This document shows positions 28,110-46,180 of a stretch of 64,000 nt of DNA, one piece after another (position 1 is the stretch's first letter; each line of letters starts with the position of its first letter). Source of the DNA: Spirosoma oryzae (GTDB taxonomy: Bacteria; Bacteroidota; Bacteroidia; Cytophagales; Spirosomataceae). A program made the translations under genes and the position numbers. Location of the stretch: contig NZ_PVTE01000029.1 of the NCBI RefSeq assembly GCF_003002825.1, forward strand, positions 1 through 64,000, in the 5' to 3' direction. Under the pieces are notes generated by a model. That model was not told the origin of the DNA. It made no database searches and saw nothing but the letters and a program-made list of their open reading frames with translations.

Positions 28110-28179
28110 ATGCTAATAGCAGCGAGGCTTTTTGATAGTTGCTAGGATCAATAAATCGCTGGCAGTTAAAGAGCTATTT

Positions 28180-28257
28180 GTCATCCCGAGCCTGCGAGGG
28201 ATCTTCGGTAGCAGGCTATTTTCTTTTACCGAAGATCCCTCGCAGGCTCGGGATGAC
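28180..28257. repeat. Perfect 31-bp inverted repeat (dispersed palindromic element)
   Basis: Arms 28180-28210 and 28227-28257 are exact complements, beginning GTCATCCCGAGCCTGCGAGG. The same sequence, less perfect, recurs at 53726-53808, and a relative begins at 56689. Each lies between genes. This is a multi-copy element of the region; nothing in it codes for protein. Confidence 0.85.
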
Positions 28258-28356
28258 AGAAAAAACACTACGACTAGCGACCCGGTGGAACGGGAGCCGG
28301 AACCACGTTTGCGACCAGCTTCGTCGATTTGAGATAGGCGAAAAGCAGCATAAAAA

Positions 28357-30797: not shown

Positions 30798-31262
30798 ATG
30801 GAGCCACTGGACGCTATTGATAAGCAATTACTTCGTCTGTTACAGAACGACGCGAAGCAGACGACAAAAGAATTGGCCGCTCATCTGGGGCTGACGCTGT
30901 CACCGGTTTATGAGCGTGTCAGGCGACTGGAAAACCTGGGCTACATCAAACAGTACATTGCCGTGCTGGACAAAAACCTGCTGGGGCAGCCGATCACTAC
31001 CTTTTGTCAGGTGTCGATGCGCTACCACGACAAAGCGTTTATCGATAAGTTCGAGGAGGAGGTGCAGAAGCTGGAGGAAGTGCAGGAGTGCTACCACATG
31101 GCCGGGCAGGTCGACTTTCTGCTGAAGATTCATGTCGGTAGTCTCAACGAGTACCACGACTTCGTCAAATACAAACTGTCGCAGATTGAGAACATCGGCG
31201 TCCTGAACAGCACCTTCGTCCTGAAAGAGATCAAACGCGACATCGGCTATCACATACACTAG
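30798..31262 (+). CDS. lrp: Lrp/AsnC family transcriptional regulator
   Basis: 154 residues. N-terminal winged helix-turn-helix (about 8-55: LLQNDAKQTTKELAAHLG, SPVYERVRRLENLGYI), then the RAM ligand-binding domain (about 70-148; YHMAGQVDFLLKIHVG). Lrp-type proteins sense amino acids such as leucine, alanine or glycine. Placed divergently from tdh-kbl, it likely controls threonine use. The 3' end is special: it is repeated three more times downstream (32384, 34495, 45304), and a 14-bp dyad spans its stop codon. GC is 33 of 60 in 31081-31140, like the core genome. Confidence 0.93.
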   Translation: MEPLDAIDKQLLRLLQNDAKQTTKELAAHLGLTLSPVYERVRRLENLGYIKQYIAVLDKNLLGQPITTFCQVSMRYHDKAFIDKFEEEVQKLEEVQECYHMAGQVDFLLKIHVGSLNEYHDFVKYKLSQIENIGVLNSTFVLKEIKRDIGYHIH

Positions 31263-31279
31263 TGCGATAGCCGATGTCG
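31238..31279 (+). terminator. 14-bp dyad spanning the lrp stop codon
   Basis: Arms 31238-31251 (CGACATCGGCTATC) and 31266-31279 (GATAGCCGATGTCG) are exact complements, and the 14-base loop contains the TAG at 31260-31262. It is followed by a G-rich stretch and no T-run, so it may be an intrinsic terminator of poor type or a recombination site. The same dyad, with one changed pair, is kept in the second downstream copy (34531-34572). Confidence 0.65.
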
Positions 31280-31302
31280 ACAGGCCGGGGGATTCATTAG
31301 AG

Positions 31303-31310
31303 TACCTTTG
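31303..31310 (+). promoter_or_regulatory. -7 promoter element of the Rpn-type gene
   Basis: TACCTTTG is a perfect TAnnTTTG and ends 4 bases before the ATG at 31315, so a transcript from here would be leaderless or nearly so. No -33 element is obvious; that position falls in the lrp dyad's downstream arm. Confidence 0.5.
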
Positions 31311-31314
31311 TAGC

Positions 31315-32178
31315 ATGGATACACCCGTTTACATTCCCGTTATTTCAGACTATGGGTTCAAGGCTACTTTCGGTAACGAAGCTAATACCTTATTTCTACG
31401 TACAGCCTTACAGGCGCTGATCAAATCAGCGATACCCATTCGAGAAGTGCATTTTGATAAGAATGTATTTGAAGCGTTAACCATCGACAGCAGAAGTGGC
31501 ATTTTTGATCTAGCCTGTACTGACGAGAACGGAAGCCAGTTTATTGTCGAAATGCAATTGGGCTTAGCCCCGCACTTTGTCCAACGCATGAAATTCTATG
31601 CTTTACATAAGTTCAACACAGTAGTAGAGCGTGGTGAGTTTGATTATGCCAATTTGCCCAAGATATATGCTATTGCCATTTTAGCCAAGAGTATCTTACC
31701 AACTACTCATTTTCATACGATTGCTAATTTGAGGAGTGAAATGGGGGAAATCATTGATAACCAGATGACATTCATTACCGTAGAACTAGCTAAATTTAAC
31801 AAGCAAGTAACCCAGATAGAGACTGACTTAGAAAAACTGGTTTATACGATGAAGACACTGCATACGACCGAACCGACTCAGTATCCTGCTTTCTGGAACG
31901 AGGAGTGGCTAAAGCGGGCTATTGACGAGTTGGATACCAGGAAAATGACCCCGGAAGAGCGGGCATATTTTGCTCGTGTGACAGCTGCCAACGCTGAAGC
32001 GGTTAAGGCTGAGAAGCAAAAAATTCAGGAAGCTGAAGATCGCAGGGAGAATCTGGTAAGAAGCGAAACGGTTAAGACTGCCCTTCAAATGGGCCTGGCG
32101 GTCGAACAAGTGGCTAGGTTGGCGAATGTGTCGATTGAGTTTGTTGCTCAGATTCAGACTCAACTATCTGTCGATTAA
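31315..32178 (+). CDS. Rpn/PD-(D/E)XK nuclease family transposase-like protein
   Basis: 287 residues of the PF12784 group: YIPVISDYGFKATFGNEAN at the start, then SGIFDLACTDENGSQFIVEM with the nuclease residues Asp65, Glu79 and Gln81 (the D...ExQ variant of PD-(D/E)XK), and a C-terminal helical part ending in a AVEQVARLANVSIEFV repeat motif typical of the family. E. coli Rpn relatives are DNA nucleases that promote RecA-independent recombination. GC is only 21 of 60 in 31681-31740, against 33 of 60 in the end of lrp, so it is foreign. It sits alone between lrp and the first lrp 3'-end copy. The active-site residues are intact. Confidence 0.9.
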   Translation: MDTPVYIPVISDYGFKATFGNEANTLFLRTALQALIKSAIPIREVHFDKNVFEALTIDSRSGIFDLACTDENGSQFIVEMQLGLAPHFVQRMKFYALHKFNTVVERGEFDYANLPKIYAIAILAKSILPTTHFHTIANLRSEMGEIIDNQMTFITVELAKFNKQVTQIETDLEKLVYTMKTLHTTEPTQYPAFWNEEWLKRAIDELDTRKMTPEERAYFARVTAANAEAVKAEKQKIQEAEDRRENLVRSETVKTALQMGLAVEQVARLANVSIEFVAQIQTQLSVD

Positions 32179-32383
32179 CGATTAATGTTTCTAGTTCGAG
32201 ACGTAGTAGCCAACTATTCGTGTATAAGAATCTTGAGTCAACGTAAGCATCCGTTGGCTTTAGTCAAGTATGATAAAAATTTGTTTACAGATCTCTTATA
32301 GGCTTACATACTACTCTGTTCTATCAAGCGCCCGGTGCGACAGACAATTTCTGAGTACGTTTTGTATGAAAATGAGCTGATAA

Positions 32384-32536
32384 GTCGACTTTCTGCTGAA
32401 GATTCACGTCGGTAGTCTCAACGAGTACCACGATTTCGTCAAATACAAACTGTCGCAGATTGAGAACATCGGCGTCCTGAACAGCACCTTCGTCCTGAAA
32501 GAGATTAAACGCGACATCGGCTATCACATACACTAG
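32384..32536 (+). pseudogene. Copy 1 of the lrp 3' end (153 bp)
   Basis: Matches 31110-31262 without gaps, from GTCGACTTTCTGC to the TAG, with three differences by eye (CAT/CAC, GAC/GAT, ATC/ATT), all third-position and silent. It has no start codon or N-terminal half. After the stop the match ends at once, so the right arm of the dyad is missing. It marks the right edge of the Rpn block. Confidence 0.9.
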
Positions 32537-32759
32537 TACGTTGGGTGTAACGCAAAAAATAGTGTGGGTTCGGCGAGTTGCGGGCGACAGAAGAAGTAAT
32601 TTGAATACCAGACGTCTGGTTCGAAAATTCACTACTTCGGCGACAGAGAAAACGCTCCGGTTTGTCAGGTCTGGACTTGTGAAGTGAGTTTTGGCTGGCA
32701 AGTCGGACGCCCTGAGTTAGGTAGACTAAGAGCAAGTCTTTCGGTAGTATTGTGTCAAC

Positions 32760-32809
32760 ACCGAAATTCCTTCATTAAAAAAGAGATTTTTTAATGAAGG
32801 AATTTCGGT
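32760..32809. repeat. Perfect 23-bp inverted repeat with 4-base loop
   Basis: Arms 32760-32782 and 32787-32809 (ACCGAAATTCCTTC then an A-run; exact complement) with loop GAGA. Long A and T runs sit at the loop end of each arm. It could be a strong hairpin terminator, or a folded pair of mobile-element ends; no gene is adjacent on either side. The rest of 32179-32383 and 32537-32760 shows nothing recognisable. Confidence 0.75.
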
Positions 32810-32927
32810 TCACTAATAAATAGTTGTGAAGGACGAATAGTAAGTGCTTTATAGTATTGGTGTTAGCTTATTTCGCACATTCACATTTGTAATGCATAAA
32901 TCTCCTTCTGTACGAATTCAGTTGGTC

Positions 32928-33060
32928 TTAAATAAGCCAACGTTTTTCGGGGCGCTGATTCAGCTGGTTTTCAATCCAACGGGCCCGCTCGATTGGATAT
33001 GTAACTGGGCCGGATAATGCTGATCGATCATGATCACCCGACAGTTGCCCACGTGGAGCG
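32928..33060 (-). pseudogene. Possible remnant of a calcineurin-like metallophosphoesterase
   Basis: Reading the minus strand from 33060, one frame gives CISLHVGNCRVIMIDQHYP, and another frame then gives TYPIERARWIENQLNQRPEK and RWLI before a stop at 32930. Joined across a frameshift, this resembles the 'YSF..GN..FI.LD...WL...L' part of metallophosphoesterases. The metal-binding residues of the family are not present in this short piece. Weak evidence; it may be chance. Confidence 0.3.
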
Positions 33061-33074
33061 AGATGCATATACCC

Positions 33075-34091
33075 TCACTTTGGTTTTTTTGCAGTTGTAC
33101 TTTTATAACCCTTCTGAGAGGAAACCTTTTTTACGCTAATTTTGGCCGAAGTTACAGGCTTTTTTGATGAATTTCGCTTCTTAACTTTTGGCTTTAGTGT
33201 TGTGTATGGTATGTCAATGTCGTTTGTGTCTGCTGCTGTAATTTCTTCAGAATCATCTTCATCTTGCAAAATAGTTGGAACGGGCTTGGGAGCAACGTAG
33301 TATTTCATGGCTTCGGGCATCTCTCTTTGCAAATCCCGAACCCGGCGTTCATCGGATGGATGTGTACTCATAAATTCGGGGGGCTTCTGACCACCATTAC
33401 TAGCCATACGCTGCCAGAAGACAACAGCTTGCTGCGGGTCGTAACCTGCCATGGCCATAAAAATTAGGCCGAGGTGGTCAGCTTCCGACTCGTGCGTTCG
33501 ACTGTGCGGAAGGGCTAGGCCGTACTGATAGCCTATTCCGACGGCCTGTAACAACAGCAGATTGGCCTGTCTTTTTTTTTCAGGCGAGTAAGCATTGATA
33601 AGTATCTGACCACTCTCCATCAATCCATTAGCAAGTAACGCTTCGCTCAGGCGTTCTGCGCCATGAGCTGCAATGGCATGGGCAATCTCGTGTCCCATAA
33701 CCGTTGCCACACCTGATTCATTTTGGGTATAGGGCAGAATTCCCGTATAAAAAACTACCTTTCCACCTGGCAAACAGGTTGCATTAACATCCTCTTTGTG
33801 AATGAGGTTAAATTCCCATTGAAACCCTTTGATTCGATCACCATAGCCGTTGCGGTTGAGATAGTTTTCCATGGCCACCCGCAACCGATTGCCCACTCGC
33901 TGAATCATCTGGTAATTAGAACCACTATATATCACTTGGCTCTCGTTTAGCTCTTCTTTGTATCGACCTGCACTCAGTGCAAGCAGCTCGTTGCTATCAA
34001 CCATGATAAATTGCTTTCGGCCTGTTAAGGGTACTTTTTGACAGCCAATCGTCAAGCCAATAATAAGCATTAGTAGTAGCGATCTTTTCAT
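33075..34091 (-). CDS. M48 family zinc metalloprotease, lipoprotein
   Basis: 338 residues from the ATG at 34091 (MKRSLLLMLIIGLTIGC); the frame runs on to 34148 but would overlap the small membrane protein. The lipobox places the lipidated residue at Cys17. Zinc site: HEIAH at 134-138 and the third ligand in ESEADHLG (201-208), as in BepA/LoiP-like periplasmic M48 proteases that watch outer-membrane protein quality. A basic, Lys/Ser-rich tail (about 285-338) is unusual for the family. AT-rich against the neighbours of lrp. Same strand, 13 bases after the small membrane-protein gene. Confidence 0.92.
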   Translation of the reverse strand: MKRSLLLMLIIGLTIGCQKVPLTGRKQFIMVDSNELLALSAGRYKEELNESQVIYSGSNYQMIQRVGNRLRVAMENYLNRNGYGDRIKGFQWEFNLIHKEDVNATCLPGGKVVFYTGILPYTQNESGVATVMGHEIAHAIAAHGAERLSEALLANGLMESGQILINAYSPEKKRQANLLLLQAVGIGYQYGLALPHSRTHESEADHLGLIFMAMAGYDPQQAVVFWQRMASNGGQKPPEFMSTHPSDERRVRDLQREMPEAMKYYVAPKPVPTILQDEDDSEEITAADTNDIDIPYTTLKPKVKKRNSSKKPVTSAKISVKKVSSQKGYKSTTAKKPK

Positions 34092-34104
34092 AGTCGTTTT
34101 ACAA

Positions 34105-34422
34105 TTATACTTGCTTTCGTTTGCGCCTATTTTTAGAGGAAGAAACAAGTACTTTAGATGCTAAAAACACTGAAAAGTAAACTAAACCATCACCAACCAA
34201 ACCTTCTTTGACGAATAGTGAATAATTTTGTTCTTGAGATGTCGGCCACGCAAGCACAATGCTGCCTACTGTGAAGATAATGAGTGTTACGTATCTAAAT
34301 TTTCTTCGAGTATTCGTCGCATCATTCAGTTCAATTAAGTTTTTGAAAAAAGCAATTTTCTGAATCGCCGGTTGGAGCCAGACTAAGCACTTCAACCTTT
34401 CATATTGAGCCTTGTCAGCCAA
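34105..34422 (-). CDS. Small membrane protein of unknown function
   Basis: 105 residues with two hydrophobic segments (about 42-60, RYVTLIIFTVGSIVLAW, and about 75-92, GLVGDGLVYFSVFLASKVL) and a basic tail NRRKRKQ. I do not recognise a family. It lies 13 bases upstream of the M48 lipoprotein on the same strand, so they may be co-transcribed. AT-rich. Confidence 0.55.
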   Translation of the reverse strand: MADKAQYERLKCLVWLQPAIQKIAFFKNLIELNDATNTRRKFRYVTLIIFTVGSIVLAWPTSQEQNYSLFVKEGLVGDGLVYFSVFLASKVLVSSSKNRRKRKQV

Positions 34423-34494
34423 GACCCGGAAACCAAACCCAAACCTGCCTGACCGGGGCGTTTAAACTGTCGTACAAAATCCGGAAAATGGAAG

Positions 34495-34576
34495 CCTGAA
34501 CAGCACCTTCGTCCTAAAAGAGATCAAACGCGACATCGGCTATTACATACAATAGTGCGATAGCCGATGCCGACGG
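34495..34576 (+). pseudogene. Copy 2 of the lrp 3' end, with the dyad kept
   Basis: 34495-34555 matches 31202-31262 with three differences in 61 bases (one silent; His to Tyr and His to Gln near the end). Unlike the other copies, the match goes on past the stop through TGCGATAGCCGATG to about 34576, so the stop-spanning dyad (34531-34544 with 34559-34572) is kept. It marks the right edge of the M48 block. Confidence 0.85.
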
Positions 34577-34590
34577 TGGGGTATCTTATA

Positions 34591-36312
34591 TTATTGCTTT
34601 TTCAGATCGCTGAACTTACCATACACTGACAGCCTGTAATTGCCCGTGCCACTCGTACTGATGCCGGGCGTGACGACGATCTTGTGCGTTCCTTTATTCA
34701 CCTTCTCAATCGCATAAACATAGTTGGTGGCAGCAGTGCTGTAATCCAGACGGATTCCGCTTGGATTGTAGATATCTATGTTGCCAACAATGTCTGGCGA
34801 ACGCAGGCTGACATCCAGCACCGAGTTATCTTCCGTTACAGTCAGGGTATAGGTAATTGCTGCCTTTTTACCGACATAGCTGCCGGCCTGGATAGCTGAG
34901 TTGTACACCGTCTGCTTCAGGTTCTGCACCTTCCCGGTAACCTCCAGACTGTACTTGCCAATATCGTCACGCTTACCTGTGCCGATATACAAGCCGTAGG
35001 TACCCTTGTTGACTTTCTTGAGGATAGTACGTGGCGTACCAGCCGGTTGCGTACCATACGTGTATGTTTCCTCCCCTGTAGGGGCGCGTAAAACCAGCCA
35101 CACACTCACGTCGGCCGAAGATACATTGATCTCTATAGGGGCATTGTCCTCAGTTATGTCAAAGGTGTAGAAGTGATTACGGGGTGAAATGGGCGGGCGG
35201 TTCCCAAATCCTCCGCCCCCGCCTTCGTCGCCGAAACTAACGTTGGTTGCCTGAAGGCGGGTAGTAGGCAGGGGTGTGAACGCAGCGGCAAGGCCGCTCC
35301 CGGCCAATCGGAAGGTGCCGACGTCAGACTTCTGGCTGGTATACACCATGACGCTATATGTCCCTGCATTGAGGGTCTTGTCCAGCACAACCGAGCGATC
35401 CGTCCCCCGATCAAGAACCAGGTTCCCCAACTGGTCGTAGAGACGAATACCAACGTTAATATCGGGAGACGTCAGCGTTAGCGAAACGGGCTGATTACTG
35501 GTGGCTACGTCGAATGAATAAAACCTGTTGCGTGGTGAATAGTCTGGACCACCGCTGGTGCCATCAGCGGCTGTCCAGCTTCCGTTGACGGATCGAACGG
35601 CCGGAGTGGTAGCCGTGAGCGATACATCCTGCGATACAGCGGGCCAGATACCGTCGGTAACGGTCAAACTCAGAACGTAAGTACCCGCAACGTCGGCGGT
35701 GAACTTGGCAATTGACTCCTTCGTGTCGGTCAGGGCAGCGTTGCTACCGGTCGGTTTGGTTTTGACAGCCCAGGCGTACGTTAGTTTGTCGCCGTCGGGA
35801 TCGCTGGATTTGCTGGCATCGATAGCTGTTTGCTTCCCTGTTTCTACCGTCGTTGACGTTGCGACACTAATGACAGGTGGTTTGCCAGGCAGAGAAACGT
35901 TGATGGTTAGCTCCGTGGTTTTTTTCTGGCCCGTCGCGTCGGTAATCGTCAGAACGAGAACATAGGTGCCTGGTTTATCAGGGATCAGTTCGGCCCGTAA
36001 CGAGTCGGCTTTGAGTAGTGTGGCCTTACTATCAGCGGGTGCCGACTTGATGGTCCAGGCGTAAGTCAGCGTACCCTGCCCACCCGTAGATACCGAAGAA
36101 GGAGCATCCAGTATGGTTTTGGTGTTTACCGTTCCGTTTGCAGTGGCCGTAGATACGTCGGGTGTGGGAGCTGGATCTGGATCTGGCTTTTTCCCGCAGG
36201 ACACGAGAATCGAGCCAGACAACGCCAGCCAAAAAAGGAAAGCAAGTGCACGATTACATATTATCCGAAGATAACAGAAGACTGTACTTTTTATGAAGTT
36301 GATCGCTTTCAT
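34591..36312 (-). CDS. Lipoprotein with PKD-like and pre-peptidase-C-like domains
   Basis: 573 residues from the ATG at 36312 (MKAINFIKS); the open frame reaches 36465 but the signal peptide begins here, with lipobox LVSC (Cys near 38). A proline-aspartate linker (KKPDPDPAPTPD) is followed by two PKD-like domains (about 50-135 and 145-235, each with TYAW and YVLVLTITD/YVLSLTVTD), then three or four pre-peptidase-C-like beta domains with the recurrent 'SPRN.FYSFD / YDQLGN / GTYSVMVYT' pattern (about 240-573). A surface adhesion or protein-binding role is likely; no catalytic domain is seen. Starts 15 bases after lrp copy 2. Confidence 0.8.
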   Translation of the reverse strand: MKAINFIKSTVFCYLRIICNRALAFLFWLALSGSILVSCGKKPDPDPAPTPDVSTATANGTVNTKTILDAPSSVSTGGQGTLTYAWTIKSAPADSKATLLKADSLRAELIPDKPGTYVLVLTITDATGQKKTTELTINVSLPGKPPVISVATSTTVETGKQTAIDASKSSDPDGDKLTYAWAVKTKPTGSNAALTDTKESIAKFTADVAGTYVLSLTVTDGIWPAVSQDVSLTATTPAVRSVNGSWTAADGTSGGPDYSPRNRFYSFDVATSNQPVSLTLTSPDINVGIRLYDQLGNLVLDRGTDRSVVLDKTLNAGTYSVMVYTSQKSDVGTFRLAGSGLAAAFTPLPTTRLQATNVSFGDEGGGGGFGNRPPISPRNHFYTFDITEDNAPIEINVSSADVSVWLVLRAPTGEETYTYGTQPAGTPRTILKKVNKGTYGLYIGTGKRDDIGKYSLEVTGKVQNLKQTVYNSAIQAGSYVGKKAAITYTLTVTEDNSVLDVSLRSPDIVGNIDIYNPSGIRLDYSTAATNYVYAIEKVNKGTHKIVVTPGISTSGTGNYRLSVYGKFSDLKKQ

Positions 36313-36409
36313 ACTGACGGACATGAGTGAGAAATGTACCAACGCCAAAGCATCTGGAATATGTGATTCGTGCTGATTGTTACTGAAAATGACTTTTCCA
36401 GTCTCCTTA

Positions 36410-37009
36410 CTATTTTCTAAAACTGATGGCTTGACCTTCCTTTGTGCCGTCAAAATAAAATCCATCTATTCCATTTACGCCGTATAGCTTATTTACTATC
36501 TTTTCTACATCCTCCTCTATGGAGTTATTGATTACGCCTGCGGTAAACGCTGATTTCCACTTTATACCACCTCCTCTTGATTGGAGTACCCGGTAGCTTT
36601 TCAGTGGCTCACACATGATAAAAAGAGGCATCCCTTTTATTTTGGAGACTCTCGCAATTCCTTTGTTTTTAGCAGTTGCTTTCTGTTCGAATTTTACACC
36701 AACTATTCTTTTGCCGGATGAATAGACTACTGCATCTACATTTGCATTTTCTTTTTTTACTCTATTTATAAACTGCTCTACTCGTCCGGAAATCGACTTG
36801 TTTATTAGGCCTCCTGTCAGCAAAGACTCCGCTTTCAAGCCCGTATTTACGTCAGCAACTACCTCGTAATCAACTAAGGGTTCATTCATAATATAAACCT
36901 CTACGCCGTTTACTTTTTTGACCCTTGCTAAATAGTCACCTTGTTCCTGAGCAAAAGCGCATACGCTTGTAATCAGGAGGAGTAAGCTGGATAGTAGCGT
37001 TCTTTTCAT
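36410..37009 (-). CDS. Secreted protein with two tandem homologous modules, unknown family
   Basis: 199 residues, signal peptide 1-20 (LLLLITSVCAFAQ). Two related modules of about 85 residues follow. Each has a 'ARV.K..G...(Y/F)IM.EPL..Y.V' strand and a '(S/A).L/FT.G.IN.SI...VE...N...' helix, so an internal duplication is clear by eye. No known domain recognised. AT-rich. It lies just upstream of the PKD/PPC lipoprotein on the same strand, 97 bases away, and 74 bases downstream of the beta-barrel gene. Confidence 0.75.
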   Translation of the reverse strand: MKRTLLSSLLLLITSVCAFAQEQGDYLARVKKVNGVEVYIMNEPLVDYEVVADVNTGLKAESLLTGGLINKSISGRVEQFINRVKKENANVDAVVYSSGKRIVGVKFEQKATAKNKGIARVSKIKGMPLFIMCEPLKSYRVLQSRGGGIKWKSAFTAGVINNSIEEDVEKIVNKLYGVNGIDGFYFDGTKEGQAISFRK

Positions 37010-37083
37010 AGTTGATGCTGAATTGAAAAAAGAGCAGTTGTAGGAGTAATTGAAAAATGAATTTCGATGAAAAAGGATCTTAC

Positions 37084-38025
37084 TTATCTGGACAAAAAGT
37101 AGCCAACGCCAAGTCCAAATGTCCTGTTTCTGATAGCAGGATCGATCAGACCCACGCTAGGATTGATATTGGAGAGCCCTAAATTGTAGAACACGTTCAG
37201 CGTCAGACCTGCAGACAGGTCGTACCAGCCAGAAAGGCGTAATCCAAAGTCAGTCGTAGTAAAATCGTCCTTCTGGGCACTCCCTATTTTTGCATCTCGT
37301 GTTCCTATTTTTCCACCTAGTGTGTAGCCAAAATATCCACCGCCACCCAGCAAAAGCTGGCCGCTCGACGTGGGAATTTTATATAACACGTCGACGGGTA
37401 CTTCCAGATAGTTGGTTTTATAGGAAGAAACATTGCCATTAATAAGGGTGCACCCCTTACCCGAATACAGTAGTTGCGGACGAACCGTCAACGCCGTATT
37501 GAGGGGTACGTCGAGTAACAGACCCACTTGAAAACCAAGAATACCTTTGGTCGATAAACCTGTTAACGTGAAGTAGCCGCCACTCTGTGTGGCACTCTGA
37601 ATGCCGCCCTTGAGCCCAAATCGTATACCCTCCGACGTCGCAACCGCCCGGGAGCGGTCAACTGGAGCAGGGATGTATCGAGGCTCAGAGTCTACTGGCC
37701 TATTGTCGGTGAAAGATCCTTGCCGAACGACTTTCGTAAACTGCTCTATCTCTCCGTTGCTCCCATATTGGAGATAACTAAAATCAGTTTTCTTCGATCG
37801 AAAAACGGGGCCATCAGGATTGCTAGCTCGCTTATAAACGACCTCATTGTCCGTAATTTCGGTAACCAGTACTTCCAGTTGCGTGCCATCGCGCCGAACC
37901 AGTAAATCAGGTTTTGGCACAGGGCGCGTGGTAGTTGATTTTTTGTGGGGGGATTGAGCCTGAACTGTGGTTACAGAAACAAGCATCAAACTAGCAAACG
38001 AAATGGTGAGTAAGCATCTACGCAT
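37084..38025 (-). CDS. Outer-membrane beta-barrel protein (porin-family type)
   Basis: 313 residues, signal peptide 1-23 (SLMLVSVTTVQAQ). A middle region (about 40-105) resembles the small beta-domain often put before such barrels (LEVLVTEITDNEVVYKR). The C-terminal 190 residues form an 8-strand-like barrel: FGLKGGIQSATQSG, GFQVGLLLDVPL, LEVPVDVLYKIP, GGYFGYTLGG, GLRLSGWYDLSAGL and a final FGLGVGYFLSR. Part of the minus-strand set 34591-38934 inside block 3. Confidence 0.8.
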   Translation of the reverse strand: MRRCLLTISFASLMLVSVTTVQAQSPHKKSTTTRPVPKPDLLVRRDGTQLEVLVTEITDNEVVYKRASNPDGPVFRSKKTDFSYLQYGSNGEIEQFTKVVRQGSFTDNRPVDSEPRYIPAPVDRSRAVATSEGIRFGLKGGIQSATQSGGYFTLTGLSTKGILGFQVGLLLDVPLNTALTVRPQLLYSGKGCTLINGNVSSYKTNYLEVPVDVLYKIPTSSGQLLLGGGGYFGYTLGGKIGTRDAKIGSAQKDDFTTTDFGLRLSGWYDLSAGLTLNVFYNLGLSNINPSVGLIDPAIRNRTFGLGVGYFLSR

Positions 38026-38071
38026 GATTGTGAATAATCGTCTTAGGATGAACGTCGGTGTGATTATCGCA

Positions 38072-38512
38072 CTATTTTTTGGTGAAGACTTCTGTGAAAT
38101 CGACCGAGATGCGCCTTGTCGTCGACTCTGAGTAGAGGGAGTATTTAAGCGTTAATTCGCCGTTTGTTACACTTCCCGTCAGATTCTGTATGTATAGTAT
38201 TCCTTTCGTGTTATCACTGAACGTGTAGGATGAACCAGTACTGATGCTCTTATTATCAGCCTTAAAACCAGAACCGCTGATTGATGCCTTAATATCATTC
38301 GATGTCAGGTCGCTTATCGTTAAACCAGTTCCGGATTTAGCGATTGTGATCTCATCATCCGTGTCGGGCTTCCCGTTGAGCATAGTCTCGATCCAGGTGC
38401 CTACGTATTGATCGAGTGGGTCCGGGTCTGATTTCGGGCTACAAGCTGAAAACAGCAGGACGAACGTAAACAGGGCTAATAAGGGGCGGACAGATTTGAC
38501 GATTGTCTTCAT
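38072..38512 (-). CDS. Small lipoprotein, lipocalin-like
   Basis: 146 residues from the ATG at 38512 (MKTIVKSVRPLLALFTFVLL), lipobox FSAC (Cys near 24). The body begins DQYVGTWIETMLNG and continues as alternating short strands (LTISDLTSNDIKASISGSG, YTFSDNTKGILYIQNLTG), fitting a small beta-barrel of the lipocalin-like kind seen in many Bacteroidota lipoproteins. Exact family uncertain. It lies 59 bases after the LytTR gene on the same strand. Confidence 0.65.
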   Translation of the reverse strand: MKTIVKSVRPLLALFTFVLLFSACSPKSDPDPLDQYVGTWIETMLNGKPDTDDEITIAKSGTGLTISDLTSNDIKASISGSGFKADNKSISTGSSYTFSDNTKGILYIQNLTGSVTNGELTLKYSLYSESTTRRISVDFTEVFTKK

Positions 38513-38571
38513 AAAAACAGAATTGGATTGTGTGAACAGGGATACGAGATAAGTACACGCTTCGTCAGTGT

Positions 38572-38934
38572 TCACTGACTCGCGCTAGTCAGTCGGGTCT
38601 GCAGGATCGGTAGCCGGCTTAGCAGGTTTTCGCGATAGTGCCGCCCTATAAGTATGGGATGCCCCCGAATCGACAACTCGTTGCCACGCAGCGAATCGAT
38701 ACGGTGCAGATTCACGATGTGTTTGCGGGATACGCGGCAGAACATCACATCGTCGACCTGTTGCTCGATCGTACCCAGATTGGTGGCAAGCCGGTACGAT
38801 TGAGCCGTCGTTACGATGTCGACCCAGGCCCCTTCAGCCTGAATGAAAAGGATCGATTCCTTGGTAATCTTTTCATAGCGCTGTTTGGACGTAATGACAA
38901 ATACACAATCAGCTAATTGAATCGGTGTGGACAT
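38572..38934 (-). CDS. LytTR-type DNA-binding protein without receiver domain
   Basis: 120 residues, all LytTR domain: ILFIQAEGAWVDIVTT, YRLATNLGTIEQQ and FCRVSRKHIVNLHRID, RGNELSIRG, ending LIGRHYRENLLSRLP. Most LytTR regulators in Bacteroidota have a receiver or sensor; this one does not, so its signal is unclear. It is the first gene of the minus-strand set and faces the sigma-factor operon over about 290 bases, so it may control both. Confidence 0.85.
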   Translation of the reverse strand: MSTPIQLADCVFVITSKQRYEKITKESILFIQAEGAWVDIVTTAQSYRLATNLGTIEQQVDDVMFCRVSRKHIVNLHRIDSLRGNELSIRGHPILIGRHYRENLLSRLPILQTRLTSASQ

Positions 38935-39224
38935 AAGCGAAAAGGCCGACAGTATTCAGTGGGTTTATGGCTGATAATGCTGGAGGTAACCATCTTTTTC
39001 ACTTTTTTTTTCGGGACGTAGTCATGCCGAATTTTTGTAAAAGTGCTGACTGACCAGAAAAAGACCGTCGAAGCGCGATCAATCATATGATTGTTTTGAC
39101 AAAGGCCTGTTCTGTGCGAACAAACAGCATATCAGTAGGGCGGTCGTGGTCTTTTTCGGTTGCCTGGCTGTTGGGAGCCTGCCGGTTTATTGCTACTTTT
39201 CAGCGCGTTACCGGATATCCACCC

Positions 39225-39809
39225 ATGCTCGCTTCCAGCCCATTTACGAACCAGCAACTGCTGTATCGCTCGCTACTGGCGGGTGAAGATGCCGCTTTCG
39301 AGTACCTGTACCGGCTACTTTATCAGCGTATATCAGGCTACATTTTTGCTTCGGGCGGCACACGTGATGATACCAAGCACGTGGTTCATGAAAGCATTAT
39401 TACGTTCCTGTTCAATCTGCATTACGAAAAATACCAATGGCGCGAAGAAGCTGAACTCGCGACCTATGTCGTTAGCATTGCCCGGCACAAATGGAGCGAA
39501 ATGGGCCGTCAGGCCACCCGGATCGTCTCGCTTGATCTTACTACATTACCCCCCGATGCCGAACCCATGTCAGAAAACGATACCGACGAACCTGATTTTG
39601 AGCAACGCCGTCTGCTGGTCGATCAGAACATGAAACTCCTTGGCGACAAATGTCGAACCTGCATCGATCTGTTTTATTTCCAGAAGAAATCAATGCAGGA
39701 AATAGCCGCCCACCTCGGCTGGGCCAATGAAGACGTAGCGAAAAAAGAGAAATACCGATGCCTCAGAAAACTCCGTCTGCTGATAGGTCTACGCCCCTGG
39801 AACGATTAA
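39225..39809 (+). CDS. ECF-type sigma-70 factor of the caspase-CHAT operon
   Basis: 194 residues from the ATG at 39225 (MLASSPFTNQQLLYRSLLAG); the frame is open to 39087 but the upstream 46 residues lack sigma features. Region 2 (about 20-90, with AAFEYLYRLLYQRISGYIF and ATYVVSIARHKWSE) and region 4 (about 140-190, CIDLFYFQKKSMQEIAAHLG) are present. It starts a four-gene operon: 12 bases to the TPR protein, which overlaps the caspase gene, which is 22 bases before the CHAT gene. Confidence 0.85.
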   Translation: MLASSPFTNQQLLYRSLLAGEDAAFEYLYRLLYQRISGYIFASGGTRDDTKHVVHESIITFLFNLHYEKYQWREEAELATYVVSIARHKWSEMGRQATRIVSLDLTTLPPDAEPMSENDTDEPDFEQRRLLVDQNMKLLGDKCRTCIDLFYFQKKSMQEIAAHLGWANEDVAKKEKYRCLRKLRLLIGLRPWND

Positions 39810-39821
39810 CCGACTAGTCAC

Positions 39822-40592
39822 ATGACGTACGACCAGTTCGACCTCTTCGACCAGTATACCAATAAAACGCTGCCCGATGCGAAACGGCAGGCGTTGGAAG
39901 ATCAACTGCGGGATGATCCAGCCCTGCGGGATAGCCTGCGCGATTATCAACAGTTCCGGCACAGTCTCGATGCCGTGCCATTGAACCGACAACTGAATCG
40001 CATTCATGATCGGTTGGCAGCGCAGGGGTTCTTTGACGAAAACACGTCTGATCGGCCACCCGTACCACTGTCGTCCTCGTTCCGTCGTCGTCGCCTGGTC
40101 CTGGTCAGTTCGGTCGTGGTGCTGGCTGGGCTACTGATCGGCGCAGGTTATTGGCTCACCAAACCTACACTGGCCGAGCAAACATTTCTGACGTATTACC
40201 AACCCGAACCCGTAGCGCGCGGAGAGATGGCCTGTTCGCCCGGTCTGCTGCCCGGTATCCAGCTGTACCGGACTCAGCAGTATGAACCGGCGCTTCAACA
40301 ATTCACTGCACTCTCTGCCAGTCAGCCGTGCGTATCGTATTACGTAGGGCTGACGCAACTGGCTACCGACCAGCCCGAACTGGCTGTCCATTCGTTGGAG
40401 TCTGCTCTGAAACCGGCGATCACATCGCCCCCGCTGATTCGTCAGAAAGCCGAGTGGTATCTGGCAATGGCGTATCTGAAAGCCAATCAGCTGACTAAGG
40501 CAAAAAGCCAGCTGATACGTATCGCCCAACAACCCGACCAGCCGTTTCGGAACGTAGCGCAGCAGGCTCTAGCCGACCTCAGTCATGATTAA
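39822..40592 (+). CDS. Membrane-anchored TPR protein, anti-sigma-like layout
   Basis: 256 residues. The N-terminal 85 (YDQFDLFDQYTNKTLPDAKR, ALEDQLRDDPALRDSLRDYQ) resemble the cytoplasmic part of zinc-less anti-sigma factors. One membrane helix follows (about 91-110, LVLVSSVVVLAGLLIGAGYW), then a periplasmic part with TPR-like helices (about 150-250, YEPALQQFTALSASQPCVSY, LAMAYLKANQLTKAKSQLI). A sensor that holds the sigma factor and reads an envelope signal is plausible. It overlaps the caspase gene by 8 bases. Confidence 0.7.
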   Translation: MTYDQFDLFDQYTNKTLPDAKRQALEDQLRDDPALRDSLRDYQQFRHSLDAVPLNRQLNRIHDRLAAQGFFDENTSDRPPVPLSSSFRRRRLVLVSSVVVLAGLLIGAGYWLTKPTLAEQTFLTYYQPEPVARGEMACSPGLLPGIQLYRTQQYEPALQQFTALSASQPCVSYYVGLTQLATDQPELAVHSLESALKPAITSPPLIRQKAEWYLAMAYLKANQLTKAKSQLIRIAQQPDQPFRNVAQQALADLSHD

Positions 40593-42378
40593 CCGGTTGA
40601 CTTACGGGATACTGGCGATTTGGCTGACAAGTTGCGCCATCAGACCCGAACGCGGCCCCGCCGGCGGGAGCGACATAGTCGTTCCTCTCTGGGAAGACGT
40701 AAGTCAGGACGCTGTCCCGGCAGGCTCGTCCCGGTGTGATAACGTAGTGGCCCTGTTGATTGGCATCGGACAGTATAAGCCAGCCACTGGATGGGAACCC
40801 CTACAGGCCCAGAATGACGTAGCCCACCTGGCCGACGTACTGAAAAAACAAGGCGTTCCAGCCAGAAATATCCATTCGCTGCTGGACCATCAGGCCACCC
40901 GTGCCGGCATCATACAGGCGTTACAGACGCTGGCCGATACCGTGCGTAGCGGAACCCACGTGCTGATTCTGTACGGTGGGCATGCCCGGCAGATACCCGA
41001 CGATAACCATGACGAAGCCGATGGGCAGGACGAAGCCCTTGTGCCTTTCGACGCCCCTCCGGTCAGCCAGACCGACGTTCAGGGCTATCTGCGCGACGAT
41101 GAACTGAATCAGTATTTTACCCGGATCAGGTCGACGCTTGGGTCTACCGGATTGCTCTGGTTTCTGTTCGACTCCTGTCATTCACAAACCCTGAACCGGG
41201 GAAAAACAACGCATCAGCGCGGAGGAGTTGCCGCCTTGAAGCAGGCCCGGTCAGCCACCAGTATCCGGTACAAACCACCAGGCTATTCATCCGAATGGTT
41301 CGAGAAGTCGACCGATCGGCTCGGCCTTGCTCCCTACGTGTTGTTTGCGGCCGCCACCGACGGTGCCCCCAGCTTTGAAACCACCGACGCGCAGGGTCGG
41401 TCGCTGGGGCCCTTGACCCGAGCCGTTGGCGAGACCTGGATGACCGTGACAGCGGGAGAAACGTACCGAACGTTCTTTAATCGGGTTACGGCTGCGATGG
41501 CGCAATTTGCGCCCTATCAACAGCCTACTCTCGAAGGTGACGGTAACCGCGCTTTTTCCAGTTGCGTGCCGCGTTCCGTCGATGCGTCATTCCGCACACG
41601 GGCAGAACCTGTACGGATTACCTGGCCCCGAACGGACAGAGAACTGACTCCGTTGCTGGCCGCTTTGCCATTCGTTCAGCCGGCCGCTACCCGACCCGAC
41701 ATCCGTATCGTCCGCCGAAGCCGTGGTTATACGCTCGTACTGCCTGACGCGCAACCCCTGACAACCACCCCGGTTTCGGCCGGCGAGTGTGTCGAATGGA
41801 TTCGCCAGTTTTTTGCCCGGAACGTGCTGTTAAACCTGCACCAGACCAGTCCTGATTTTCAGGTACGAGCGACGCTGCAACGCCTGTTGGTCCGTAACGA
41901 AGGGGGGCAGCCTATCGTGACCGATACGTTACAGGCTGAATCCTCGGCGGGCGTGCCTGCGTTCCGGATTTCAGCCGATGAGCGGATGCTACTTACGCTG
42001 ACCAATACCGGCCCGAAACCGTTCTACGTCACCGTCGTGGATCTGCTCCCCGACGGCAAATTGCACGTACTGCTTCCCGAAGCCGATCATGCGTCCGGGG
42101 AATACCAGCTACAACCCGGCCAATCGCTGCGCAGACGAATACGACTGACGGAACCCACCGGTACCGAGGTCTATAAACTGTTGCTGACACCGACTCCCAT
42201 TGCGCTGCGTTCCGTTCTGCAAACGCGCGGCAACCAGCCCGTTCAGCATCCTTACGAAACTCTTTTTGACCGCATCTACACCACGCGCGGAGCAGCCAAA
42301 ATTTCCCCCTTGTCACTATCGACAAGAACAGGAGCCACTGCTGACGTCGCATTCTGGGTCGAGCCACAAAAATATTGA
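40585..42378 (+). CDS. Caspase family (peptidase C14) lipoprotein
   Basis: 597 residues. The start MINRLTYGILAIWLTSC is a lipoprotein signal with Cys17, so the protein should sit outside the cytoplasm. The caspase-like p20 region (about 50-200) has VALLIGIGQY, DVAHLADVLKKQGV, and the catalytic pair: His133 in LYGGHARQIP and Cys198 in FLFDSCHSQT. A linker follows, then a C-terminal beta-rich domain like DUF4384 (about 450-570, LTLTNTGPKPFYVTVVDLLP, LHVLLPEADH). Known bacterial caspase-like proteases act in cell death, defence and signalling. Partner: the CHAT protease 22 bases downstream. Confidence 0.9.
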   Translation: MINRLTYGILAIWLTSCAIRPERGPAGGSDIVVPLWEDVSQDAVPAGSSRCDNVVALLIGIGQYKPATGWEPLQAQNDVAHLADVLKKQGVPARNIHSLLDHQATRAGIIQALQTLADTVRSGTHVLILYGGHARQIPDDNHDEADGQDEALVPFDAPPVSQTDVQGYLRDDELNQYFTRIRSTLGSTGLLWFLFDSCHSQTLNRGKTTHQRGGVAALKQARSATSIRYKPPGYSSEWFEKSTDRLGLAPYVLFAAATDGAPSFETTDAQGRSLGPLTRAVGETWMTVTAGETYRTFFNRVTAAMAQFAPYQQPTLEGDGNRAFSSCVPRSVDASFRTRAEPVRITWPRTDRELTPLLAALPFVQPAATRPDIRIVRRSRGYTLVLPDAQPLTTTPVSAGECVEWIRQFFARNVLLNLHQTSPDFQVRATLQRLLVRNEGGQPIVTDTLQAESSAGVPAFRISADERMLLTLTNTGPKPFYVTVVDLLPDGKLHVLLPEADHASGEYQLQPGQSLRRRIRLTEPTGTEVYKLLLTPTPIALRSVLQTRGNQPVQHPYETLFDRIYTTRGAAKISPLSLSTRTGATADVAFWVEPQKY

Positions 42379-42400
42379 TCACACTTGTTGTTACACGGCC

Positions 42401-45298
42401 ATGTCAATTACACAATTCTGTTGGCGTTTTCTTTTCGTAATAAGTCTTCAGGTGCCGGTAACGGCTTTATACGCCCAAGATTGGAAAGCGGTAATTAATA
42501 AAGCCGATTCATTGCAAAAAGCCCAGAACTTCCCGGCGGCAATCAAGGTATCGAAGGAAGCCTTGAAACTAGCGAAGGCATCTTTTGGAGAAATACACCT
42601 TAATTGTGCTGCAACACTCATGCAATTGGGTGAGATACAAGCTGAACTTGGCGATTATATGGCCTCTGACTCGACCACTTCCGCTAGCCGGAATTTGTTG
42701 AGAAAATTAAATCTGACTGATCACCAATATTATTTAAATACAACAGTCACATTAGCGCTGTTACGTAGTATTCAGAACAAATTTAGTCAGTCGGAAACCT
42801 ACTATCAGGAAGCGCTTCAACTGATCGAAAAGGCCAAAGGAAAAGAGTCATTTGACTATGTGGACATCATTGGCGATATGGGAAGCATGTATTTGAGCAG
42901 TGGTAACTATGCTAAAGCTGAAGAATGGCTTTTGCTTGCCCTGGGTCTTAAAGCGAAGCTGGTAGGAAAGCAAAGCGAACCGTATGCCAATTCACTCAAC
43001 AATCTGGGGCAATTGTATGCCGAAAAGGATGATTTCGCCCGAGCTGAATCATATCTACAGGAATCAATACGCATCCGGGAAAAATTGTTTGGCTCCGATG
43101 GTTTGGCGCTGGGTGCTCCACTTAGTAATCTAGCCTATGCGTATGGCAGGCAGGGTGACTATCAGGCATCATTGAAACTGGCGCTTCGAGTTATTAAGCT
43201 ACAAGAAGATAAGGGGGTAAAGGATAGGGTATACCTCACTCAGCTCAACAATGCAGCTACTATGTATACCCGACTACGGGAATTCAGTAAAGCCGATAGC
43301 CTGTACGTAAAACTACACCCGATGATCGCTGCAAGTGTTGGTACCAGTCATCGACAATATGCGGTGCTACTTAGCAATCGTGGGGTGGTCCAATTATATC
43401 TCAATAATTACGAATCAGCCCGTCAGTTGCTGGAGAAAGCCTATGGAATCAATGTAGCCAATGTAGGCGAAAAACACCCCGGCTCACTAAATATGCTGGC
43501 TAGTCTGGCTCAAGTATATAGCTATTTAAATAGACCACAGGAAGCCGATTCATTGTATCGAAAAGTGAGAGTTTTGGGAGCAACGGAGTTAGGTATGCAA
43601 AACCTTGACTACTCGGAGTATTTGAATAAGTATAGTCAATTCTATCTCCATACTAATCAGGTAGACAGCGCTTTGGCGATGACCGGTAAAGTAGTGGCAG
43701 CCGTTAGTGTAAATCTCACCAGAAGCTTTCTTTATCAAACAACTCGTCAACAAGAAAATCTTCTGGTTAAGTGTGCGCCATTTGTGAGTACAGCTTTTGA
43801 GATCGCATACAACGCTCCTCGAAACGTCGATGCTATTCAACTCGCCTATTCAGGAAATTTATTCTTAAAAAACTTACTGCTTAACCAACACGTAAATCAA
43901 TTTAACGGTAACACACAAGCCAATGATCGTCTTCATTCGTTGACCGATACGCTTCGTCTGGTTAGTAATCAGATCGCTACTCAGTACACCCTGCCCGTTG
44001 CCCAACGCACAGACCTGGATTCGCTCGAAACGAAGGCAGAAACGCTGGAAAAAGAACTGGCGCGCCAATCGGCTCCGTTTCGGCAGGCGCAGCAAGACGT
44101 ACGGACGCGTTGGGAGGATATACGGAACGCCCTCAAACCGCATGAGGCCGCTATTGAGTTTGTCAGCTTCCCATTCCACAACGGCCGGACACAAACCGAT
44201 TCGATCCGGTATCTGGCGCTGGTGCTACGTCCCAATGACCCGGCTCCACACCTCGTTCCGCTACTGACCGATGAAGCGCCACTGCGCCGACTGTTGGCCC
44301 GCCGACGGGGAGCAGCGTTGTACGCAACGCGCGGCTCCGAAATCGACACGGATCAACTCGCGCAGGGTGATTCATTATACCGGCTCATCTGGCATCCGAT
44401 TGAACAGTTGCTTGCTGATACAAAGACCGTTTATTTTTCTCCAGCTGGCTTACTCCATCAGGTGGCCTTTGCCGCTTTACCCTATCACAGCAAATCGGGC
44501 AACGGAGCGAATTACCTCATCGACCGGTATCAGCTAAAGCAGGTCAGCAGTACCCGACAGGTCGTTACGCAGGCAGCAGACGTAGCCTATTCCGCTGTTG
44601 AGTCGGTGCACTTGTATGGCGGTATTCAGTATGATTCGACGGGAGGTTCGACGGAAGGCTGGCCGTACCTGCCCGGCACGCAGCAGGAAGCAGAGCAGAT
44701 CGGCCAGCTTGTCGGCTCGAAAGCTCAATTGATCACCGGAAGCAATGCTACGGAAACACACCTCAAGCGTGTGTCCGGCCAATCGCCGACCGTATTGCAC
44801 CTGGCCACGCATGGGTTCTCATTTCCAGAACCGACGGTCTCCGCCATCAGCACCGTTGGTGGTGGAAACACGTTCCGGCGTATCAGCAACCCCCTGTTTC
44901 GGACGGGCTTACTGATGGCCGATGCCAATCGGGTCTGGCAGGGTGGTACACCGGCCCTGGGTAAAGACGACGGAGTACTGACGGCTTACGAAGTGGCCAG
45001 TCTGAATTTATCGACAACCAAACTCGTGGTGCTGTCGGCCTGCGAAACAGCTATGGGCGACATTCGGGGGAGTGAAGGCGTATTCGGCTTGCAACGGGCG
45101 TTCAAAATGGCCGGGGTTCGCTATCTGCTGATGAGTCTATGGCCCGTATCCGATCAGGCAACCAGTCATCTAATGACCCGGTTTTATCGCAACTGGAAGA
45201 AGTATAAAACCACCAGACGGGCTTTTGAGCAAACCCTGACCCAGATGCGCCGACAATACCCACCTGCCGTCTGGGCCTCGTTCATACTGGTTGAGTGA
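42401..45298 (+). CDS. TPR-CHAT domain protease, exported
   Basis: 965 residues from the ATG at 42401, chosen because a signal peptide begins there (MSITQFCWRFLFVISLQVPV, then TALYAQ); the open frame to 42200 overlaps the caspase gene. About ten TPR repeats (40-430) precede a helical linker and a CHAT domain (about 640-965). CHAT cysteine-protease residues are intact: His804 in HLATHGF and Cys881 in LSACETAMGD. CHAT with TPR is the layout of the Csx29 protease in type III-E CRISPR; here no CRISPR is present and the protein looks periplasmic or surface-bound. GC jumps inside the gene near 43980 (see findings). Ends 5 bases before lrp copy 3. Confidence 0.93.
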   Translation: MSITQFCWRFLFVISLQVPVTALYAQDWKAVINKADSLQKAQNFPAAIKVSKEALKLAKASFGEIHLNCAATLMQLGEIQAELGDYMASDSTTSASRNLLRKLNLTDHQYYLNTTVTLALLRSIQNKFSQSETYYQEALQLIEKAKGKESFDYVDIIGDMGSMYLSSGNYAKAEEWLLLALGLKAKLVGKQSEPYANSLNNLGQLYAEKDDFARAESYLQESIRIREKLFGSDGLALGAPLSNLAYAYGRQGDYQASLKLALRVIKLQEDKGVKDRVYLTQLNNAATMYTRLREFSKADSLYVKLHPMIAASVGTSHRQYAVLLSNRGVVQLYLNNYESARQLLEKAYGINVANVGEKHPGSLNMLASLAQVYSYLNRPQEADSLYRKVRVLGATELGMQNLDYSEYLNKYSQFYLHTNQVDSALAMTGKVVAAVSVNLTRSFLYQTTRQQENLLVKCAPFVSTAFEIAYNAPRNVDAIQLAYSGNLFLKNLLLNQHVNQFNGNTQANDRLHSLTDTLRLVSNQIATQYTLPVAQRTDLDSLETKAETLEKELARQSAPFRQAQQDVRTRWEDIRNALKPHEAAIEFVSFPFHNGRTQTDSIRYLALVLRPNDPAPHLVPLLTDEAPLRRLLARRRGAALYATRGSEIDTDQLAQGDSLYRLIWHPIEQLLADTKTVYFSPAGLLHQVAFAALPYHSKSGNGANYLIDRYQLKQVSSTRQVVTQAADVAYSAVESVHLYGGIQYDSTGGSTEGWPYLPGTQQEAEQIGQLVGSKAQLITGSNATETHLKRVSGQSPTVLHLATHGFSFPEPTVSAISTVGGGNTFRRISNPLFRTGLLMADANRVWQGGTPALGKDDGVLTAYEVASLNLSTTKLVVLSACETAMGDIRGSEGVFGLQRAFKMAGVRYLLMSLWPVSDQATSHLMTRFYRNWKKYKTTRRAFEQTLTQMRRQYPPAVWASFILVE

Positions 45299-45303
45299 AC
45301 GGG

Positions 45304-45428
45304 GGTAGTCTTAACGAGTACCACGCTTTATCAATTATAAGTCGTCACAGATTCAAAACATCGGTGTCCTGAACAGCATTTTCGTACTAAAGGAAATAAA
45401 ACGCAACATCGGCTACCACATACAGTAG
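45304..45428 (+). pseudogene. Copy 3 of the lrp 3' end, decayed
   Basis: Aligns to 31137-31262 with about 22 mismatches and one single-base deletion (after TACCACG), which breaks the frame, and ends at a TAG (45426-45428). It begins 5 bases after the CHAT stop. The dyad's right arm is absent; the match ends at the stop with a G-run. It marks the right edge of block 3. Confidence 0.85.
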
Positions 45429-45490
45429 TGGGGGGGGACTAGCCAATAAGCAAGTGTTTTGCGTCTCAATCGACAACATATAACTGACCG

Positions 45491-45814: not shown

Positions 45815-46180
45815 AACACGACCAGCGTGAGCAAGTTTTTTACGGTGTAGTTTGTGCGTCGGTCGACACGAGACACTTGAGTTGTGGGTGGGTTTTACAA
45901 CATAGAAAGCTGGTACATCAGGCTCAGCGCTCATTGATGGTCGGAAAGTGCGTTCGTTGGCGGCTTGTCGGGTGGCAGGATAATTGACAACAGGTCAGGC
46001 GGTGCAGTTCAACCGGCAGTGGGGTGTAAAGTTGTGATGTACGTTCGTTCTGGTTAACTTATAGTCACGCCATCAACTCCTAGGGCGGTGTATGGTTAAA
46101 ATGCCGTGCTCGTTTGTCAGCGTGTATGCGACAGCTTGTATGCCCCGTGGCACTTGTGTAGAGATCATTATCAACAGTGA
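45815..46180. other. 366-base gap with no recognised feature
   Basis: No open gene, hairpin or repeat stands out on either strand. A promoter for the alpha/beta hydrolase must lie at its right end. It may be eroded sequence from the accessory zone. Confidence 0.4.

Follow-up and report, generated by a model that had tools for sequence, protein, structure and literature searches.

Displaced 3′ ends of lrp behind an Rpn-type nuclease gene of Spirosoma oryzae, and comparable scars at other core genes

The DNA analysed here (the window: 64,000 nucleotides of Spirosoma oryzae, contig NZ_PVTE01000029.1) holds an intact lrp gene followed by an Rpn-type nuclease gene, and the 3′ end of lrp is displaced three times further downstream. 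In a preliminary description of this locus, the Rpn gene was regarded as the only candidate mover. The features on which the argument turns are the following:

30798–31262, plus strand: lrp, gene of an Lrp/AsnC family regulator, intact, with its 3′ end duplicated (PF01037, PF13404, PF13412)
31110–31266, plus strand: in-gene copy of the lrp 3′ end (c1), reference copy of repeat D1 in the repeat search
31238–31279, plus strand: terminator-like hairpin over the lrp stop codon (arms 31238–31250 and 31267–31279), read from the sequence
31267–32383: newest insert, with the Rpn gene as its sole substantial gene
31315–32178, plus strand: Rpn-type PD-(D/E)XK nuclease gene, intact, 287 aa (PF12784, TIGR01784; D65, E79, Q81)
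32384–32540, plus strand: displaced lrp 3′ end c2, 157 nt, 97% identity, 3 synonymous and 0 nonsynonymous differences
34495–34574, plus strand: displaced lrp 3′ end c3, 80 nt, 95% identity, 1 synonymous and 2 nonsynonymous differences
45304–45430, plus strand: displaced lrp 3′ end c4, presumably the oldest, 127 nt, 82% identity, 12 synonymous and 10 nonsynonymous differences

The open reading frame (ORF) at 31315–32178 belongs to the PDDEXK_2/Rpn family according to the profile search, which matched it to PF12784 (E 1.5e-33; 116.9 bits against a cut-off of 27.4) and to TIGR01784 (E 5e-24; 85.6 bits against a cut-off of 52.1). Asp65, Glu79 and Gln81—which, following the preliminary description and the usual assignment in the family, we take to be the catalytic residues—are invariant in an alignment of 11 sequences, in agreement with the earlier statement that they are intact, and the C-terminus is variable among the compared sequences, as described for the family. 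The gene starts 52 nt after lrp, and no other substantial ORF lies before the displaced lrp end at 32384, bearing out that it is the first gene behind lrp and stands alone in the youngest block. Its GC content (43.5%) is, as had also been noticed, lower than that of lrp (51.4%) and of the whole window (53.9%). However, this low value does not date the insertion, because the GC content of 41 Rpn genes of the genus is, on average, 5.6 points lower than that of their loci.

The repeat search of the window found no inverted pair of at least 18 nt flanking the Rpn gene, and the insert has neither the terminal inverted repeats nor the fixed element ends of an insertion sequence or transposon. In most comparisons, the nucleotide similarity of this gene to its Rpn counterparts starts 11–23 nt before the ATG, its 3′ limit falls within the C-terminus with few exceptions, and no conserved element ends were found around the Rpn genes apart from a promoter-like stretch directly before the ATG. 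A second Rpn match was not found on the window contig; two more Rpn genes of the same genome, each split into two matches, lie elsewhere (G000 C6:331332–331881 and C27:18522–19164). Rpn proteins have been described as toxin–antitoxin systems with a variable C-terminus and anti-phage activity, whose genes move horizontally yet show no transposon ends (Zhong 2023, PMC10327210), and the gene studied here resembles those in family, C-terminus and spread without such ends. That work reports no target duplications, whereas long repeats of a gene end accompany 7 of the 150 Rpn genes surveyed here.

The product of lrp shares 86–99% amino acid identity with its counterparts in 13 relatives of the genus. 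The identity of the displaced ends drops with distance (97, 95 and 82%), and the points in lrp at which they start are scattered (31110, 31202 and 31137). The 29-nt core pattern of this repeat (at most 3 mismatches) occurs three times in the window, against 0 expected in shuffles, and no further copy of the lrp end was found in the whole genome (6.57 Mb, 75 contigs) at E ≤ 0.001. The right arm of the hairpin is present in c1 and c3 (one mismatch) and missing in c2 and c4. Copy c3 predates c2, because it retains states common to G025, the closest relative by lrp (89% DNA identity), that c1 and c2 have lost.

The preliminary description tied the Rpn gene to insertion at gene ends, and proposed a survey of such genes for duplicated ends of their neighbours. 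Taking distinct full-length Rpn genes of 200 aa or more as units, and testing at the protein level for displaced 3′ ends of the neighbour, 7 of 150 Rpn genes lie behind a gene whose 3′ end recurs on the far side. The control regions, which cover 592 kb of the genus (20 arbitrary 20-kb stretches plus 12 lrp neighbourhoods), gave none in 468 genes; the two figures are not counted in quite the same unit, since inserts are counted for Rpn and genes are tested for the controls. Without the window, which is the ascertained case, the comparison stands at 6/149 versus 0/468 (Fisher p 2e-4). Within the genus, the figures are 3/42 versus 0/468, and in the wider family only one Rpn gene out of 42 is positive (L280, from Fibrella). 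A contig scan contributed 80 named loci (the best 80 of 539 relatives), and 16 of the 150 genes have a flank of less than 1 kb on one side. The excess over random genes that the preliminary description looked for was thus found, and statistically the link of Rpn to insertion at gene ends holds. However, 143 of the 150 are free of scars, so that Rpn genes in general lie without flanking gene-end repeats, which, taken literally, is the outcome named in that description as refuting.

The scar-bearing loci are the window, L070, L176, L081/L280 (end of a glutaminase gene), L087 (molybdopterin-binding family), L092 (methylmalonyl-CoA mutase), and L148 (OMP decarboxylase/SIS end, in a Methylococcaceae bin). 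Long gene-end repeats at the DNA level accompany three Rpn genes of the genus: that of the window, one on contig C18 of the same genome (272 nt, 98%), and one in G005, where a hybrid two-component gene has its end repeated (243 nt, 98%). L108, where Rpn is broken into frames of 119 and 183 aa, was left out as a weak eighth case (57-nt scar, 1/5 changes), and L160/L096, a single locus, was dropped because its 113-aa ORF (50% identity) was taken as a spurious frame in an intergenic repeat; adding L160 and L108 would raise the count to 9. Also dropped were L088 and L115, whose copy lies 5′, L123, with tandem Rpn-like frames, and six loci where the duplicated end is that of Rpn itself (L095, L122, L143, and L152 by protein; L128 and L154 by DNA). 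In these six, the repeated 3′ end lies just downstream of its gene, and could represent displaced antitoxin (RpnS) modules. Direct repeats across Rpn without a gene end were left uncounted (e.g., L041, 125 nt, 92%; L046/L096, 147 nt, 92%; L088, L089, L095, and L115). Many Spirosoma Rpn genes (L042–L053, L065, L071, and others) end in or beside an interspersed intergenic repeat (GGCGACAGGCAGCACGTCCC...GACAGCCCAACC), inside which some of their stop codons seem to lie.

The preliminary description saw Rpn as the candidate mover; on this view, the nuclease would drive its own insertion at gene ends, by DNA nicking and RecA-independent template switching. Apart from the enrichment at scars, such a role would fit with the overexpression of Rpn in E. 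coli, which raises RecA-independent recombination with short exchanges and for which a template-switch model has been proposed (Kingston 2017, PMC5350276). However, ParE/RelE genes of the genus are scarred at a similar rate: 4 of the 70 loci examined, out of 87 rows, bear a scar (L361, L371, L433, and weakly L443; p 0.73 against Rpn). The weak case consists of 14 aa without a DNA repeat of 50 nt, and leaving it out gives 3/70 (p 2e-3). RelE-type toxins cut mRNA; ParE types poison gyrase, and could break DNA too. Furthermore, the older lrp blocks hold no Rpn gene, the great majority of Rpn genes bear no scar, and Zhong 2023 (PMC10327210) finds neither terminal repeats nor target duplications and judges transposition highly unlikely. 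Examined against other cargo, Rpn-specific mobility was rejected as the main reading, and Rpn is very improbable as the driver of these insertions.

Toxin genes of the RelE/ParE type lie behind prephenate dehydrogenase (L361) and behind mutS (L371), both with the gene end duplicated, and their products match RelE_StbE slightly below the cut-off. A RelE pair (L175) and a GrpB gene (L283) each follow a duplicated gene end as well, with none of 15 GrpB genes of the genus bearing a scar. Among 1282 non-Rpn genes of the Rpn loci (overlaps between sets kept), the downstream scars without Rpn are those of L175, L283/L099 (GrpB) and L171/L076, the last with a doubtful 116-aa ORF.

The end of methylmalonyl-CoA mutase, searched order-wide with a Hymenobacter query, has matches in 192 of 390 genomes, of which the best 30 loci were examined. 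Around 24 kinds of first frame, told apart by eye from their first residues, follow the mutase gene in these loci. Displaced mutase ends were found within 1.5 kb at 6 of them. The cargo at the scarred loci is an Rpn gene in one case, a PD_DExK protein in two (PADLOC E 4e-43 and 9e-44), and an ART-like protein in three—one of them together with a 143-aa protein—with a weak PD-T4-9_A match in the two ART-like proteins tested. In G424, these units form an array, in which an ART-like gene is followed by a mutase end, the start of a PD_DExK-type frame, and a second end. The start points of the mutase scars are scattered (214, 273, 279, 364, and 394 of the last 450 nt). On a side note, the 3′ side of the mutase gene (L325–L354), where the first frame often comes after a terminator-like hairpin, is hypervariable and holds several kinds of defence-like cargo.

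Rpn is therefore one cargo among several, since the RelE pair, GrpB, PD_DExK and ART-like genes, and also the older lrp blocks, are scarred without it. These blocks and the stretch beyond them hold the following features:

32541–34494: block 2, older insert without Rpn, holding an M48 peptidase gene and a 105-aa ORF
33075–34148, minus strand: M48 peptidase gene (PF01435)
34105–34422, minus strand: 105-aa ORF
34575–45303: block 3, older insert of 10.7 kb without Rpn, with a gene cluster at 34591–45298
45431–46872: remaining variable stretch, up to where G025 rejoins the window
45491–45814: TfoX_N gene (PF04993)
46181–46819: 212-aa ORF

The M48 region of block 2 (33101–34091) has an 84% DNA match in G021:C28, and parts of the block 3 cluster are found in the same order in G033:C59, G030:C216, and G014:C1, which suggests that the cluster was probably acquired as one unit. 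In G033, the counterpart of the cluster and lrp lie on different contigs, and lrp is unmatched in G030 and G014. Core synteny is kept with the sister genome G025, whose sequence about 715 nt past the lrp stop matches window positions 46873–46935; the 15.6-kb stack is therefore either extra here or lost in G025. DNA matches to lrp exist in 13 of 35 relatives of the genus, the other 22 having none, and no displaced lrp end was found in the stretches fetched from those 13 (~12–13 kb; only 0.8 kb in G025). Perfect inverted repeats are present in the window at 28179–28258 (32-nt arms, 16-nt loop) and 32760–32809 (23-nt arms, 4-nt loop).

Long direct repeats of variable length around a lone gene (157 nt in the window, 57–272 nt in 12 cases) are what would be expected if a break with long overhangs led to 60–270 nt of the gene end being copied upon insertion. 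This has been proposed for restriction–modification genes, some of which insert with long, variable target duplications on the order of 100 bp, according to a review (PMC3874152, after Nobusato 2000 and Furuta 2010), and both settings involve small addiction-type genes without a mobility gene. Under this mechanism, however, the copies should begin identical and only the displaced one should drift, with ~37% of changes expected to be synonymous if it was free from the start and equal times are assumed. Between the copies of the 12 cases, 75 changes are synonymous and 28 nonsynonymous (dN/dS ~0.11), a synonymous share of 73% (p 3e-13) that remains at 74% without L092 (p 4e-10), and at 69% when c3 and c4 are added (88 versus 40 changes, p 6e-13). 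This argument is indirect. Cases of low divergence are already biased (3/0 in c2 of the window, 2/0 in G005, and 2/0 in L361), and the hairpin arm behind the stop codon, present in both c1 and c3, is missing from c2. Because of this synonymous excess, most differences are taken to have arisen under selection on both copies, which look like two formerly functional alleles rather than a fresh target duplication, unlike those of the restriction–modification genes, and they abut stop codons. One gap in 5 of the 12 alignments implies that decay has begun in some of them. Insertion with target duplication is, on these grounds, rather improbable.

The homology between the copies ends within -4 to +18 nt of the stop codon in 12 of 12 cases. 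The 3′ ends of genes are known attachment sites, as for e14 and phage 21, which use the icd 3′ end, and a tyrosine or serine integrase acting in trans would explain an identity that stops at the stop codon and differences that are mostly synonymous, as at icd. On the other hand, the start points are scattered within one and the same gene, including those of the mutase loci (30 examined), whereas one fixed core per target gene would be needed, and no shared core was recognised by eye in the 12 junction sets. The newest lrp block holds no integrase or recombinase gene nor any substantial gene other than Rpn (the genes of block 3 were searched only in part). Of all the mechanisms weighed here, this one deserves the least credence.

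The explanation towards which we lean is that foreign DNA carrying its own allele of a gene end recombines within the gene, while the opposite end of the incoming piece is joined illegitimately, with Rpn as cargo. The lrp 3′ end would accordingly have been an entry site of foreign DNA at least three times, with each incoming piece bringing its own lrp-end allele beside its cargo—the 10.7-kb cluster, then the M48 gene, and then Rpn. Homologous recombination within lrp, followed on the far side of the piece by an illegitimate join, would leave lrp intact and push the resident end downstream as a 5′-truncated scar, and the same process would act at other core genes, often with toxin–antitoxin or defence-like cargo. 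The scars with their falling identity, the core synteny with G025, the inserts of a single gene, the scattered scar starts, the synonymous bias, and the scars around non-Rpn cargo are observed; that homology acted on one side only, that transformation or conjugation was the vehicle, and which of the alleles is foreign are inferred. One-sided homology with an illegitimate join would account directly for the synonymous bias and for the absence of a recombinase, terminal repeats, and a core; the homology ending at the stop codon would be accounted for only if the donor already had the cargo close behind it. If the in-gene end is the newcomer, the displaced copy should track the relatives as well or better, as in the mutase locus L329, where it scores 0.90–0.98 against the nearest relatives and the in-gene end 0.87–0.93.

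Several known systems share parts of this scheme. Recombination in the flanks moves the minimal mobile elements of Neisseria, whose variable cargo lies between conserved genes; they are not known to leave gene-end scars. In homology-facilitated illegitimate recombination, one end is likewise joined by homology and the other illegitimately, but that process has been described in experiments (PMC3240628), while only presumed footprints are available here. Such a mechanism has been proposed for the displaced 3′ ends in arrays of type VI secretion system effectors (Kirchberger 2017, PMC5361080). In these arrays and orphan rhs 3′ ends, as at lrp, successive insertions occur behind a constant upstream part, and displaced ends and cargo accumulate in order; however, the effector gene that bears the cargo is itself the target there, and its 3′ end is altered. 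In the present cases, insertion affects an ordinary core gene (lrp, mutS, prephenate dehydrogenase, or the mutase), which regains its end, and an unrelated gene next to it forms the cargo.

Several observations weigh against the reading that we favour. In Hymenobacter L092/L325 it is the displaced copy that is the outlier (0.87–0.88 to L327 and L328, compared with 0.95–0.96 for the in-gene end), the reverse of what L329 shows and of what the model in its simplest form predicts; this displaced copy may be foreign or decayed. In 3 of 5 mutase cases compared, the displaced end is near the end of its own genome's gene (0.92–0.96). Scars measure 57–272 nt, and all those counted stay below 300 nt even where the gene is 1.2–3.4 kb long; joins made illegitimately at random would not be expected to give such short scars, bearing in mind that the search discards copies spanning more than 60% of the gene. 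In several co-directional cases, the distance from the cargo stop codon to the scar is only 0–8 nt (found in L325, L087, L329, L330, L331, L361, and L371), which the model does not explain; it is 35 nt in L175, 181 nt in L148, and 205 nt in the window. The synonymous bias is absent from single cases (L070, 2/2; L283, 7/8; L108, 1/5; c3, 1/2; c4, 12/10), and scars are lacking at 66 of the 70 ParE loci, as at most Rpn genes. Finally, no genome pair with and without an insert was found, and the empty-site searches for three other cases failed: C18 has only a 59% homologue in a different context, for G005, the other genomes of the genus gave no DNA match at E ≤ 1e-30, and the glutaminase gene is carried by two Fibrella relatives, in which the stretch matching the downstream sequence of G093 sits on other contigs or at other places. 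G093 also has a second glutaminase-like stretch (G093:C34:46127–47220), with 191 nt that match, in inverted orientation, the end of the other glutaminase gene ~110 nt away.

The outlying displaced copy of L092/L325 fits better with circular cassettes, in which cargo and one gene end would sit on a small circle that integrates through one homologous crossover within the gene end. Such a step would be reversible, would need no special enzyme—like the one-sided recombination preferred here—and would allow the displaced copy to be the foreign one. It would also yield arrays of cargo and ends such as those of lrp, with four ends, and of the G424 mutase, made of alleles that differ mostly synonymously. 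However, neither a circle nor a free unit has been seen, the origin of the first unit of cargo plus end is left unexplained, and L329 points in the opposite direction. Moreover, the Rpn of the window has one distant match in 72,556 plasmid records (E ≤ 1e-20) and one in 50,697 phage records (E ≤ 1e-10). Circular cassettes are, on balance, unlikely.

Rpn is best read as a passenger, not the engine, of a general insertion process, and its link to gene ends is shared with other toxin–antitoxin or defence-like cargo. What is new is the recurrence of displaced 3′ ends at ordinary core genes with cargo of this type; no prior description of gene-end duplication around Rpn or toxin–antitoxin genes was recognised among the matches listed in the literature searched by title and summary, with subscription journals mostly outside its scope. 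As a tentative and rather speculative extension, the 3′ ends of core genes might be integrase-free docking sites in Bacteroidota, where toxin–antitoxin or defence units with a spare tail allele would stack like integron cassettes, and the toxicity of the cargo, including DNA cleavage by Rpn, would favour its capture. Gene-end scars could record the arrival of single toxin–antitoxin and defence genes that spread without a mobility gene. Their signature—an intact gene, then cargo, then a diverged copy of the gene's own tail—can be counted genome-wide for any cargo family, and the scars name the core genes that serve as entry points, among them lrp, mutS, prephenate dehydrogenase, and methylmalonyl-CoA mutase.
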